This document shows, in pieces, positions 1-33,936 of a DNA stretch of 64,000 bases. This stretch comes from an uncultured Bacteroidia bacterium (GTDB lineage: Bacteria; Bacteroidota; Bacteroidia; NS11-12g; UBA9320), in contig CALSMN010000009.1 in NCBI GenBank assembly GCA_943787465.1, positions 1-64,000 of the forward strand, read 5' to 3'. The notes under the pieces were generated by a model, which had not been told where the DNA came from, ran no database searches, and was given only the letters and a program-made list of their open reading frames with translations. Made by a program: the position numbers and the translations under genes. Positions within the stretch are counted from its first letter, which is position 1. Every line of letters begins with the position of its first letter.

Positions 1-1182
1 ATCTTCTCAACTCCTTACTCAAATTACTGTGACTAATCTTAGCATAAATCTGGGTAGTTCGTAAACTATTATGTCCTAGCCAATGACTGACTGTTTCAAT
101 GGGTACTTCATTGTCTAATAAAATGGTAGTTGCACAAGTATGTCTAGCCACGTGATGGGTTAGATGCTTTTTAATTTGTGCTTTCTCTGCGATGAATTTC
201 AAGTATTCATTGACCTTTGGATTACTCAGTTTTGGCAGCACTTTATTTTCAATCATACGTTCATTACACCAGCTATACTTTTCAATAATTGAAAGAGCTG
301 AACCAAGTAAAGGAATTTCTCTTCGTTCACCTGTTTTGATTTGATCAATTCTTAAATAAAGCTCATTACCGATCTTGTGAATATTTTCCATAGTTAAGGC
401 CATAGCATCACTATATCTAAGCCCTGTGTAACACGAAAAAAGAAAGATATCACGCACCTGGCTAGCCGTTGGATGGTTGGCAAGATTTACATCACATAAT
501 TGATGAATTTCTTGTTGGGTTAGATATTCTCTGTTTGCTTGTGGGTATCTGAGTTTAAAATTAGCATAAGGGTTAAAAGAGAGTATTCGTCTTCTGATAG
601 CTTCGTTCAATACAGCCTTTAGTCTTGAATGGTGTTTGTTCACAGAGTTCAGTGTGAAGCTTATCCCCGTTATTGTTATATGGTGTATGTTTTAGGTAAT
701 CATCCCACTTAGTAATGAAGTGAAAGTCAATATCCTTGACAGCGGGCTCTCTGACTGATGAATTGAAATAATTAATCAGAGCAATCAAAGGTTTGTTTGT
801 ATTTGGCTTGGGTGGATTTTACCACTTGTCCTTTTTCTTTTTGATCCTCCAGATAATTTAAGTAGAAGGAGAGTAATTTAATTTTGGGTTTCTTAACAGC
901 TCCTATAAATTCTTTGATCTCTTGCGGACCAAATTCTTTTCCTAATTCTAATAGCTCATGATGAGCTTTGTATACTTTGGTTTCTAGGTCAGCTAATCGC
1001 TGGTTAAAAATGATGTTATGATTAAAGCGTTCTTTTTGAGTATTCCATTCTTTTTTATCACATCTGATTCCTGTAGCAATTTCTGCTTTTTTACGGTCAT
1101 AGATAATTCTTAAATTCACACTAAAAGCATACCTGCCATGCTTAAGCGGTTTGAGAAAAAATTTAAGACTGATGGTTCGCAT
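1..1182 (-). pseudogene. Frameshifted tyrosine recombinase (island integrase), continues past left edge
   Basis: This is a phage/ICE-type tyrosine integrase read right to left and broken by two frameshifts. The first frame (start 1182, MRTISLKFFLKP) carries the N-terminal arm-binding domain and stops at 772. The second frame (to about 655) holds the SAM-like core-binding domain (NYFNSSVREPAVKDID). The third frame, from about 660 to the window edge, holds the catalytic domain. Its active-site residues are all visible: Arg in CYTGLRYSD, HxxR in HHVARH, His in WLGHNS and Tyr in TTQIYAKI. The gene abuts the 3' end of ssrA, a classic island integration site, so the island should lie to the left. 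The intact catalytic residues suggest recent decay; sequencing errors at the two shifts are the alternative. Confidence 0.85.
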
Positions 1183-1187
1183 TTTTA

Positions 1188-1288
1188 AAATCTGTAAGTG
1201 AAACATTTTCGACTTAGGTGAAACATAAGTGAAACATTTACCCATCAAAAGTGAAACATTTTGATAGATTTTCAAAACTTACAGATTT
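1188..1288. repeat. Four phased GTGAAACAT repeats inside a 12-bp inverted repeat
   Basis: GTGAAACAT occurs at 1198-1206, 1218-1226, 1229-1237 and 1251-1259, always in the same orientation, with start-to-start steps of 20, 11 and 22 bases, close to whole helical turns. The array is bracketed by a perfect 12-bp inverted repeat, AAATCTGTAAGT at 1188-1199 and ACTTACAGATTT at 1277-1288. It lies between the integrase start (1182) and the tmRNA 3' end (1334). This is where integrase arm-type sites or an operator of the island would be expected. The assignment is inferred from position and phasing; the repeats themselves are seen directly. Confidence 0.7.
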
Positions 1289-1333
1289 GTAAATAGCTGA
1301 TTTCGAATGAATTAGAAAATATTCGAAAATAAA

Positions 1334-1707
1334 TGGTGGAGATGCCGGGAGTCGAACCCGGGTCCGAATTGGAATAGAGTTGCGCTTTCTACACGTTTAT
1401 TGCTCCTTGGTTTTCGAGAATAACCAGGTGTAGCAAAAACCCAATTAATCCTTATCCTACACGATAAATTTTAGTTTGGTAGAAATGGACTAAAATTATC
1501 TCAGTTTGTCGACTGCTTGTTACCCCTCGCAACCGAGACAAGGCTCAGGCAAGCAGATGGCATTTGCTTAATCTCTTAGATTAAGCAGCCATAGCGAAGT
1601 TATAATCGCCTGTTATGATTTGAAAGTCGAGATTTAAGAGCCGCACTTTCAATGCTCTACGTGCTTACACATCTATCGGCCAACCCGTCAAAAGCCAGAA
1701 CACCCCC
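1334..1707 (-). ncRNA. ssrA: Transfer-messenger RNA (tmRNA)
   Basis: The 3' end encodes the tRNA-like T arm (GGGTTCGACTCCCGGC) and CATCTCC-A-CCA, so CCA is genomically encoded. The 5' end reads GGGGGTGTTCTGGCTTTTGA, and its first seven bases pair with CATCTCC (two G-U pairs) to close the acceptor stem. The tag reading frame lies at 1581-1610 and decodes as GDYNFAMAA followed by TAA. The resume codon is GGC, as usual in Bacteroidota tags that start with Gly. With SmpB, tmRNA releases stalled ribosomes and tags the unfinished chain for proteolysis. The 3' end is the apparent attachment site used by the island whose integrase lies to the left. Confidence 0.96.
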
Positions 1708-30661: not shown

Positions 30662-31804
30662 ATGAATTTTCAACTTTCCGAAGAACATTTAATGATTCAG
30701 CAAGCTGCACGAGATTTTGCTGAGACTGAATTATTGCCGGGTGTCATAGATCGTGATAATGAGCAACGATTTCCTTTTGAGCAAATAAAAAAATTGGGCG
30801 AATTAGGAATGCTTGGTATGATGGTTGATCCTCAATGGGGAGGAGGAGGAATGGATACCATAAGCTATGTACTAGCTATGGAAGAAATATCCAAAGTAGA
30901 TGCTAGTGCAAGCGTGGTTATGAGTGTCAATAATTCTCTTGTATGTTGGGGGATTGAAAAATATGGAAACGAAGAACAAAAGGAAAAGTTTCTCAAGCCA
31001 TTAGCCTCTGGTCAAATTCACGGTGGTTTTTGTCTAAGTGAGCCCGAAGCAGGTAGTGATGCAACTAGTCAAAAGACGACAGCAATTGACATGGGGGACT
31101 ATTATCTATTGAATGGTACTAAAAACTGGATAACCAATGGTAAAACGGGGAGTACATTCTTAGTAATGGCCCAAACGGATGTAGAAAAAGGACATAAGGG
31201 TATTAATTGCCTTTTAGTCACCTCGGATATGGATGGTTTTGTCGTTGGTAAAAAAGAAGATAAATTAGGGATAAGAGGTTCCGATACCCATTCTATCATG
31301 TTCCAAGATGTAAAAGTACCGAAAGCCAATCGGTTGGGTGAAGAGGGTTTTGGTTTTAAGTTTGCAATGCAGGTTTTGAGTGGGGGTAGAATCGGTATTG
31401 CAGCACAGGCATTAGGTATTGCGAGTGGTGCATATGAACGTTCCGTTCAGTATGCCAAAGAACGTAAAGCTTTTGGAACTGAGATCATGAACCATCAAGC
31501 CATTCAATTTAAATTAGCTGATATGGCCACACGGATAGAAGCTTCCCGATTATTTTGTTTTAAAGCTGCAGCACTTAAAGATGCTGGAGAAGATTATGCT
31601 CAAGCATCGAGTATGGCTAAATTATATGCTTCAGAAACAGCAATGTGGGTAACCACAGAGGCTGTTCAAATTCATGGGGGGTATGGTTTTGTGAAAGAAT
31701 ATCATGTTGAACGCATGATGCGAGATGCTAAAATCACTCAAATCTATGAAGGGACAAGTGAAGTACAGCGTATTGTTATAGCTAGAAGTATTCTAAAAGG
31801 GTAG
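30662..31804 (+). CDS. Acyl-CoA dehydrogenase
   Basis: 380 residues from ATG 30662 (MNFQLSEEHLMIQQAARDF). The start is set by the conserved family N-terminus and by a promoter box just upstream. FAD-binding signatures are CLSEPEAGSDATSQ and WITNGKTGSTFLVMAQ (middle domain); the C-terminal helical domain has QALGIASGAYERSVQYA and the catalytic Glu in TQIYEGTSEVQRIVIAR. It resembles short-chain (butyryl-CoA) dehydrogenases of beta-oxidation, passing electrons to ETF. The Fe-S pair at 42828-44938 may belong to the same electron route, but they are not linked here. Confidence 0.95.
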   Translation: MNFQLSEEHLMIQQAARDFAETELLPGVIDRDNEQRFPFEQIKKLGELGMLGMMVDPQWGGGGMDTISYVLAMEEISKVDASASVVMSVNNSLVCWGIEKYGNEEQKEKFLKPLASGQIHGGFCLSEPEAGSDATSQKTTAIDMGDYYLLNGTKNWITNGKTGSTFLVMAQTDVEKGHKGINCLLVTSDMDGFVVGKKEDKLGIRGSDTHSIMFQDVKVPKANRLGEEGFGFKFAMQVLSGGRIGIAAQALGIASGAYERSVQYAKERKAFGTEIMNHQAIQFKLADMATRIEASRLFCFKAAALKDAGEDYAQASSMAKLYASETAMWVTTEAVQIHGGYGFVKEYHVERMMRDAKITQIYEGTSEVQRIVIARSILKG

Positions 31805-32994: not shown

Positions 32995-33936
32995 ATGCAA
33001 AATCGTATCACTACCCTCTTTGGCATCCAATATCCAATCATTCAGGCAGGTATGATATGGTGCAGCGGGTGGGAATTAGCTAGTGCAGTAAGTAATGCTG
33101 GTGGACTTGGCATCATTGGTGCAGGTAGCATGTACCCAGAGGTTCTCAGAGAGCACATCCAAAAAGTGAAACGTGCAACACATCGTCCATTTGCTGTGAA
33201 TATTCCCTTGTTGTATCCCAATATTGATCAACACATAGCGACCGTAATTGAAGAGCGAGTCCCCATTGTATTTACCTCTGCAGGAAATCCAAGTACATGG
33301 ACAAAAACACTTCAAAATGAAGGAATTTTGGTCGTTCATGTGGTTAGTAATGAGAAATTTGCAAAAAAAGCAGAGGACTCAGGGGTAGACGCTATTGTGG
33401 CTGAGGGATTCGAGGCAGGGGGACACAACGGAAGAGAGGAAACTACCACGATGGTGCTAGTGCCTCAAATTTGTAATGCTGTCAAAATTCCAGTTATTGC
33501 TGCAGGAGGAGTTGGTACGGGACGGTCTATGCTTGCAGCAATAGCACTAGGTGCAGATGGTGTTCAAATCGGGAGTCGATTTGTTGTCTCCGAAGAATCT
33601 TCTGCACATCCTAATTTCAAGAAAGCCATACTTGAAGCTGGTGATGGCAATACAAAACTTAGCTTGAAGCAATTGACTCCTGTAAGACTTTTGAAAAATA
33701 AATTTTGGGAAGAAGTAGAGCAAGCTGAAAAAAATGGCGCAAGTGTTGAAGAACTTAAATCACTTTTGGGGCGAGCCCGAGCAAAAAAAGGCATGTTCGA
33801 GGGAGATTTAGAAGACGGCGAGTTGGAGATAGGTCAAATAAGTGGATATATCAATGCTATAAAACCAGCAGCCGATATTATTGTTGAAATAGTACTAGAA
33901 TATACAAAAGCACTTCAATCATTGAAGGAGCTTTAA
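32995..33936 (+). CDS. Nitronate monooxygenase / FabK-like FMN flavoprotein
   Basis: 313 residues, TIM-barrel flavoprotein. Family features: N-terminal TTLFGIQYPIIQAGM, SAVSNAGGLGIIGAGSM, the active-site His in VAEGFEAGGHNGREETT (about residue 142), and the phosphate-binding IPVIAAGGVGTGRSMLAAIALGADGVQIGSRF. The family covers nitronate monooxygenase, which detoxifies nitroalkanes such as propionate-3-nitronate, and enoyl-ACP reductase FabK; the sequence does not decide between them. It is 6 bases upstream of the AlbA_2 gene and probably co-transcribed. Confidence 0.85.
   Translation: MQNRITTLFGIQYPIIQAGMIWCSGWELASAVSNAGGLGIIGAGSMYPEVLREHIQKVKRATHRPFAVNIPLLYPNIDQHIATVIEERVPIVFTSAGNPSTWTKTLQNEGILVVHVVSNEKFAKKAEDSGVDAIVAEGFEAGGHNGREETTTMVLVPQICNAVKIPVIAAGGVGTGRSMLAAIALGADGVQIGSRFVVSEESSAHPNFKKAILEAGDGNTKLSLKQLTPVRLLKNKFWEEVEQAEKNGASVEELKSLLGRARAKKGMFEGDLEDGELEIGQISGYINAIKPAADIIVEIVLEYTKALQSLKEL

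Follow-up and report, generated by a model that had tools for sequence, protein, structure and literature searches.

Repeated nonamers between int and ssrA in an uncultured Bacteroidia bacterium as probable arm-type sites of a tyrosine integrase

Four copies of the nonamer GTGAAACAT, lying between an integrase gene and the tmRNA gene ssrA in the 64,000-nucleotide stretch of DNA analysed here (the window, from an uncultured Bacteroidia bacterium), would be P' arm-type sites of the tyrosine integrase of an ssrA-integrated island, a reading drawn from sequence comparison to which we assign a probability of about 0.88. The array is very probably an element of a known kind, and it could be traced, via related islands, to probable far ends. 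Directly observed are the sites with their conservation and spacing, the copies at distal ends, the link to a single integrase clade and a predicted N-terminal domain. As in lambda-type arrays, repeated sites are found on the int side, a matching site on the other arm, and the motif is tied to the integrase. Coordinates of all features are collected in Table 1.

Table 1. Positions of the features discussed, in window coordinates except for the last row
Feature	Position	Strand	Remarks
Integrase C-terminal piece, third frame	2..643	-	catalytic domain PF00589, 82.4 bits; reaches contig start
Integrase piece, another frame	573..788	-	part of SAM-like domain PF13102, 16.7 bits, below cut-off 22.3
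Integrase N-terminal piece	772..1182	-	Arm-DNA-bind_5 (PF17293), 30.8 bits, cut-off 22.6; ends at stop codon
Inverted repeat, left arm AAATCTGTAAGT	1188..1199	+	perfect 12 bp; no role assigned
GTGAAACAT copy 1	1198..1206	+	ATGTTTCAC towards int; TGTTTCAC at +151 from T-loop TTCGA; putative P' arm-type site
GTGAAACAT copy 2	1218..1226	+	+131 from TTCGA; putative P' arm-type site; conserved 11-bp pair with copy 3
GTGAAACAT copy 3	1229..1237	+	+120 from TTCGA; putative P' arm-type site
GTGAAACAT copy 4	1251..1259	+	+98 from TTCGA; additional site, 22 bp from copy 3
Inverted repeat, right arm ACTTACAGATTT	1277..1288	+	perfect 12 bp; no role assigned
Three 10-bp steps next to core	1302..1331	-	TATTTTCGAA, TATTTTCTAA, weaker TTCATTCGAA; candidate RDF or core-type sites or bend
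attL core: tmRNA 3' end, T-loop TTCGA to RNA end	1334..1356	-	putative target of strand exchange
tmRNA gene ssrA	1334..1707	-	tag peptide GDYNFAMAA
Complete ssrA island and decayed second end (L065/L066)	G023:C11:14646-33118		

GTGAAACAT is the sole 9-mer of the window with four same-strand copies within 70 bp, and in 100 dinucleotide shuffles of the window no 9-mer reached four, or even three, copies in such an interval: the clustering is far outside chance. The first-pass annotation had described four copies in the same direction at steps of 20, 11 and 22 bases, placed on nearly the same face of the DNA. The copies are indeed exact, and their offsets (0, 20, 31 and 53) correspond to 0, 1.90, 2.95 and 5.05 turns at 10.5 bp per turn; being near whole turns, these offsets put the copies about on one face, as had been proposed.

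The array had also been described as enclosed by a perfect 12-bp inverted repeat. The repeat is there, two bases being common to its left arm and the first GTGAAACAT, and is only mildly unusual: three perfect inverted repeats of at least 12 bp with a loop of up to 100 bp occur in the window, the mean being 0.97 and the maximum 3 in 30 shuffles, and 5 of 2000 shuffles of the local 151 bp contained one. Its role as part of the structure did not hold up. None of 17 other regions, the second array of the same genome included, is enclosed by a perfect inverted repeat longer than 8 bp (the longest are of 6-8 bp), and a functional bracket, having no counterpart in these regions, was rejected. The perfect repeat around the array might also suggest a small transposable element bounded by the two 12-bp arms, a possibility that the same 17 regions speak against and that we regard as practically negligible.

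The window comes from a genome of 1.97 Mb, in which it forms the beginning of contig 9, and this contig begins inside int. The integrase gene, presumably starting at 1182, is broken into three pieces, each in a different frame; a TAA interrupts the N-terminal match, and no intact open reading frame is present. The arm-binding (PF17293) and catalytic (PF00589) domains of an Arm-domain tyrosine integrase are both recognised, along with a partial match to PF13102. The R, K, HxxR, H and Y signature can be picked out by eye in the translation of the catalytic piece. A catalytic pentad of these enzymes is named in an excerpt of PMC8138268. Because the window integrase is broken, the array beside it probably no longer functions, or does so only in trans; it is likely to be a relic unless another integrase acts on it, and an intact relative is encoded on contig C8 of the same genome.

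There, between tRNA-Ala(GGC) and the intact homologous integrase gene, lies a second array, with sites at C8:4012, 4034 and 4045 (to 4053), the only place besides the window where the pair pattern of the motif occurs in this genome (C8:4012-4053). Counted from its ATG, the C8 integrase has 398 residues; it shares 59% identity with the C-terminal and 36% with the N-terminal piece of the window protein, and matches PF17293 with 23.4 bits; no PF17293 match was reported at E 0.001 for the integrase of a related ssrA island (genome G023). In the model of another relative (L044, a G021-type integrase; mean pLDDT 83.9) the N-terminus is predicted to form three strands (2-9, 17-25 and 28-38) and one helix (54-76), and structural matches of the model include full-length lambda Int. 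Three strands and one helix are also given for the arm domain of the Tn916 subgroup in PMC8138268. A further integrase N-terminal remnant, 55% identical to the C8 copy, lies at G000:C9:71130-71456 (L015); neither an exact motif nor an RNA gene was found in the 4.5 kb searched around it.

The array recurs in related genomes. The pair pattern was found in 14 of 38 genomes of the family, the source genome included, and in 16 of 108 genomes of the order, while the reversed-pattern control gave 0 of 38 and 2 of 108, respectively; a tighter pair was found in 4 of 395 genomes of the class, all four belonging to the same family. These arrays are related by ancestry, and the loci are not independent; the loci named L042-L049 belong to genomes already counted and add no evidence. 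Practically all array places in the order (16 out of 17) adjoin a gene for tRNA-Ala, -Lys, -Asn, -Arg or tmRNA, and at 13 of these 16 a homologous integrase is seen; at the other three, all of them tmRNA genes (G004, G006 and G020), no more than about 110 bp of contig is left beyond the array. Counting by at least two TGTTTCAC on either strand adds tRNA-Ser and tRNA-Cys to the targets. The seventeenth place, in G070, had neither an RNA gene nor an integrase match in the stretch that was scanned, and was taken as a chance match.

At ssrA itself, related integrases are accompanied by an array in G005 and G023, and in G035 by one direct and one inverted exact copy. Imperfect arrays also occur: the middle copy is changed in G014, and in L050 copies stand at 87 and 119. 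The third copy is inverted in G020 and G023, so that the same direction is not a strict rule. It had been anticipated that such arrays would stand beside the integrases of related islands and would not be scattered at unrelated places: both expectations are borne out, the first at ssrA (only partly in G035) and at tRNA genes alike, the second with G070 as the exception. The same localization bears on the idea that the array belongs to the tmRNA gene, as a terminator or processing element. Its position, 75-136 bp past the tmRNA end, would suit such a role, which is contradicted by the presence of arrays beside five kinds of RNA gene; the pair pattern is, besides, absent from 24 of the 38 family genomes, and we give this explanation next to no credit.

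In a tree of 51 integrases, the array label requires 2 changes, as compared to 14 for the target RNA, with the array present in 12 of 33 labelled rows; the tree, built by a quick method, has several open forks, and leaves out near copies (L042, L046 and L049) and sequences shorter than 240 residues (the window, L053, L071 and L086). L159, an integrase without TGTTTCAC, branches within the array group; upstream of it lies a repeated word of related sequence, GTTTCAGT, as is the case for L062, L130 and L158, while L160 carries TGTTTTAC twice, 11 bp apart. The motif therefore follows the integrase and not the target RNA. When ATGTTTCAC was looked for in literature text, no integrase paper was recognised by title among the matches listed.

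This association also bears on the possibility that the repeats are excisionase (RDF) sites, binding a small helix-turn-helix protein which bends the DNA for excision. RDF sites can be direct repeats near the core, and among the products of the G023 island is an HTH_17 protein (PF12728) of 84 aa, its gene being separated from int by two open reading frames. Against it, the motif follows the integrase clade and sits on both arms, and some integrases that are not in the array set are preceded by related words, such as GTTTCAGT; in our opinion, moreover, a 10-bp-step repeat found at the core looks a better RDF candidate. Taken together, RDF binding seems a very unlikely function for GTGAAACAT.

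As arm-type sites, the copies keep a regular geometry with respect to the core. The locus scan covered 58 loci (L104-L113 being left out as repeats of earlier ones), and position counts refer to 39 of them, the rest having no recognised RNA gene or T-loop near the start. The distances of TGTTTCAC from TTCGA, in 18 regions, are mostly 130, 141 and 163, with 119, 130 and 152 in G004-G006 and 120, 131 and 153 in G098 and G072, those of the window being in Table 1. Among the 15 loci featuring the 11-bp pair, its first site falls at 130 in nine (six of them near-identical tRNA-Ala loci), at 120 in four, and at 119 and 118 in one each; none of the 15 has an offset between 120 and 130. The offset classes are thus 10-12 bp apart, corresponding to a shift of about one helical turn between lineages, and a phase concentration of R = 0.92 at 10.9 bp was obtained from 34 positions, the 13 loci that supplied them sharing descent. 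The +98 copy is peculiar to the window, not being seen at that position in the 14 further aligned regions. Twenty integrase loci without TGTTTCAC were also scanned for pairs with a step of 10-12 bp: 5 were found at +105..159, exceeding shuffles (mean 0.45, maximum 3 in 200 runs), along with 4 at +40..94 and 5 at +165..219. These counts do not support a position rule beyond the array clade, as pairs at +105..159 are no commoner in these loci than in the flanking intervals.

Copies of the motif are also found at the far ends of the islands. The distal pattern, TGTTTCACN followed after 48-60 bases by TTCGANTC, has 14 matches in 108 genomes (6 for the control). Judged by eye, nine of them continue into an RNA 3' end, the gap being 53-55 in every case; the other five do not, and were set aside as false. 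Six of the nine match RNA ends identified here: one in G023, three in G035, one in G014 (as the tRNA-Lys of G024) and one in G072, where the end is that of its own tRNA-Arg and the int-side end lies on another contig. The end found in G076 resembles the tRNA-Arg end of G072, while two in G066 are less sure. A second copy of the G024:C8 tRNA-Lys 3' region was not found in 39 kb.

The G023 island is complete: besides tmRNA and the integrase it holds the HTH_17 protein, two C5 methyltransferases, McrB-/McrC-like genes and a DUF2779 protein, and at its far end, at 31580, 47 bp of the tmRNA 3' region are repeated, one ATGTTTCAC standing at 31517; a decayed second end is present at 33060. In G035 (L084/L085, G035:C3, joined positions 17.3-20.4 kb) four ssrA 3' ends are stacked, near 17.4, 18.2, 19.2 and 20.3 kb, each with TGTTTCAC at a gap of 54, the one at 17.4 kb being a further copy with T-loop CTCGA. 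The stack consists of successive islands at one site. Stacked, repeated ssrA 3' ends with a T-loop insertion point are similarly described for the Dehalococcoides ssrA islands in an extract of PMC3146451; those islands, in contrast, use a serine recombinase, and the word "arm" is absent from that text. At distal ends, the further arm copy sits 61-63 bp from the core.

In the window's own genome, candidate P-arm copies were recognised at C1:244035 and at C10:52348, 51058 and 49419. In each case an RNA 3' end lies at the corresponding distance, and these are probably distal ends. The three on C10 each precede a tRNA-Ala 3' end, with 63 bp from TGTTTCAC to the T-loop position. The copy on C1, 137 bp from the contig end, precedes the last 15 bases of a tmRNA 3' end, at a distance of 61. 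Next to the C1 end are three open frames whose homologues, in unchanged order, lie in G035 between int and the first distal end of the ssrA stack; G023 has none. This correspondence suggests that ssrA is the locus to which the C1 end belongs. It would be the far end of the window's island, but contigs 9 and C1 are not joined. A search of the genome for a far ssrA copy, with a 24-mer and a 23-mer and up to 3 mismatches, returned only tmRNA itself; of this sequence the probable distal site retains just the last 15 bases, and it came to light through inspection of single GTGAAACAT places. A search for GTGAAACAT near the far attachment site, as had been suggested, accordingly yields matching copies in relatives, and probably in this genome as well.

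Exact GTGAAACAT occurs 29 times in the genome (20 for the reversed control): 7 copies are in the two arrays, 3 and 1 are the P-arm copies of C10 and C1, respectively, and 1 is in a decayed array on C10 (AAAATGTTTCACTTATGTTTC). For the other 17, leaving out C6:81705, the remaining 16 lie in open frames of at least 91 aa with no TTCGANTC within 200 bp. A complete tRNA-Ala gene on C10 (L165) has the same neighbour gene as that on C8 (L006), the C8 contig carrying the integrase island and C10 the three stacked distal ends; the assembly may combine strain variants or contain a duplication.

The distal copies bear on the possibility that the array is an operator only: int transcription would be controlled through binding of the repeats by the integrase or by a different regulator of the island, with no part in recombination. 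Arrays lie just upstream of int at all 13 places where the integrase is seen, and a precedent is offered by the E. coli prophage KplE1, where, according to PMC2951348, attL overlaps the int promoter, which IntS and its RDF repress. KplE1 attL is similar to the present loci in having arm-type sites near a tRNA 3' end, and differs from them in its motif; repression was measured there, while here it would be expected by analogy with intS, from which int autorepression is likely. Such a dual role is compatible with arm-type sites. As a sole function, an operator is difficult to reconcile with copies lying about 15 kb (G023) and about 9-12 kb (G035) beyond the integrase end, and probably also at the distal C1 and C10 ends, and we consider it very unlikely. 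Arm-type recombinase sites, excisionase sites and an island operator had all been put forward for this array: arm-type sites, sustained by the relatives, the distal copies and the integrase clade, are favoured over an operator alone because the arrays keep to RNA genes and related integrases and because distal copies exist.

In the proposed arrangement, the excised circle would carry the GTGAAACAT copies about 100-160 bp to one side of the crossover core, with the start of int just beyond. The core would be the T-loop/acceptor end of tmRNA, and one further copy, 61-63 bp away on the other side, would make up the P arm, remaining at the distal end of integrated islands. The integrase is presumed to bind GTGAAACAT through its N-terminal Arm domain, the core-binding and catalytic domains acting at the core as in lambda-type recombination, and would thus bridge arm to core; its binding would probably also repress int.

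The NBU1 integrase of Bacteroides, reportedly a member of the lambda family, is said to integrate at the 3' end of a tRNA-Leu gene, and NBU1 is likened to the present islands by these traits alone, the RNA-gene 3' end as target and a lambda-family integrase. IntDOT of CTnDOT appears to differ in arm motif, in target (RNA genes in the present case) and in island type. It is similar in being a Bacteroides tyrosine integrase with an arm-binding domain, for which a subterminal arm-site interaction is reported in passages of PMC8138268. Lambda Int, as outlined in a section of PMC4880445, uses its N-terminal domain to bind arm sites and forms a bridge to the core; lambda attP shares with the present loci the presence of sites on both sides of the core, away from the crossover, and a separate N-terminal domain. 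Unlike in lambda attP, int-side sites are here located between the RNA gene and int, mostly three in number (11 and 22 bp apart), with one distal site.

Next to the core, a second regularity was observed. A 9-mer repeated at exactly 10 bp, starting at +18..33, directly past the RNA end, was found in 10 of 34 attL regions (of 39 loci, five near-identical tRNA-Ala ones having been dropped), four of the ten being related tRNA-Ser loci. At the same place, steps of 8, 9, 11 and 12 bp gave 0 of 34, and shuffles a mean of 0.165 with a maximum of 2; at three other places the 10-bp step was found in 1, 0 and 3 of the 34. The sequence of this repeat differs between integrase clades, and the repeat might serve as an RDF filament site or, in place of IHF, as an intrinsic bend. 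We tentatively propose, as an idea with the odds somewhat against it, that Bacteroidota integrases at RNA genes read two phased codes, a clade-specific arm motif shifted by about whole turns and a clade-specific 10-bp-step core repeat; if true, genome sequence alone would reveal arm motifs, which could then be paired with Arm domains.

The data provide a map, obtained from sequence alone, of both attachment-site arms for an integrase clade of uncultured Bacteroidia. Since the motif, its geometry and the integrase remain associated across several RNA targets, Arm-domain specificity becomes testable in this group. Where assemblies are fragmented, the distal copies could also help locate the ends of islands. 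In several instances a contig breaks off within the start of the integrase or a little beyond it (window 1-1300, G004:C66, G006:C23, G020:C28, G025:C155 and G028:C71), and such islands may break assemblies. Finally, one 86-kb viral contig (IMGVR_UViG_2847593706_000001; L082 and L083) carries two array pairs, each located, by eye, before a tRNA-like end at which ARAGORN found no tRNA. The gene before each pair is presumably radC, and L082 also contains GGTAACTTTT twice, 12 bp apart.
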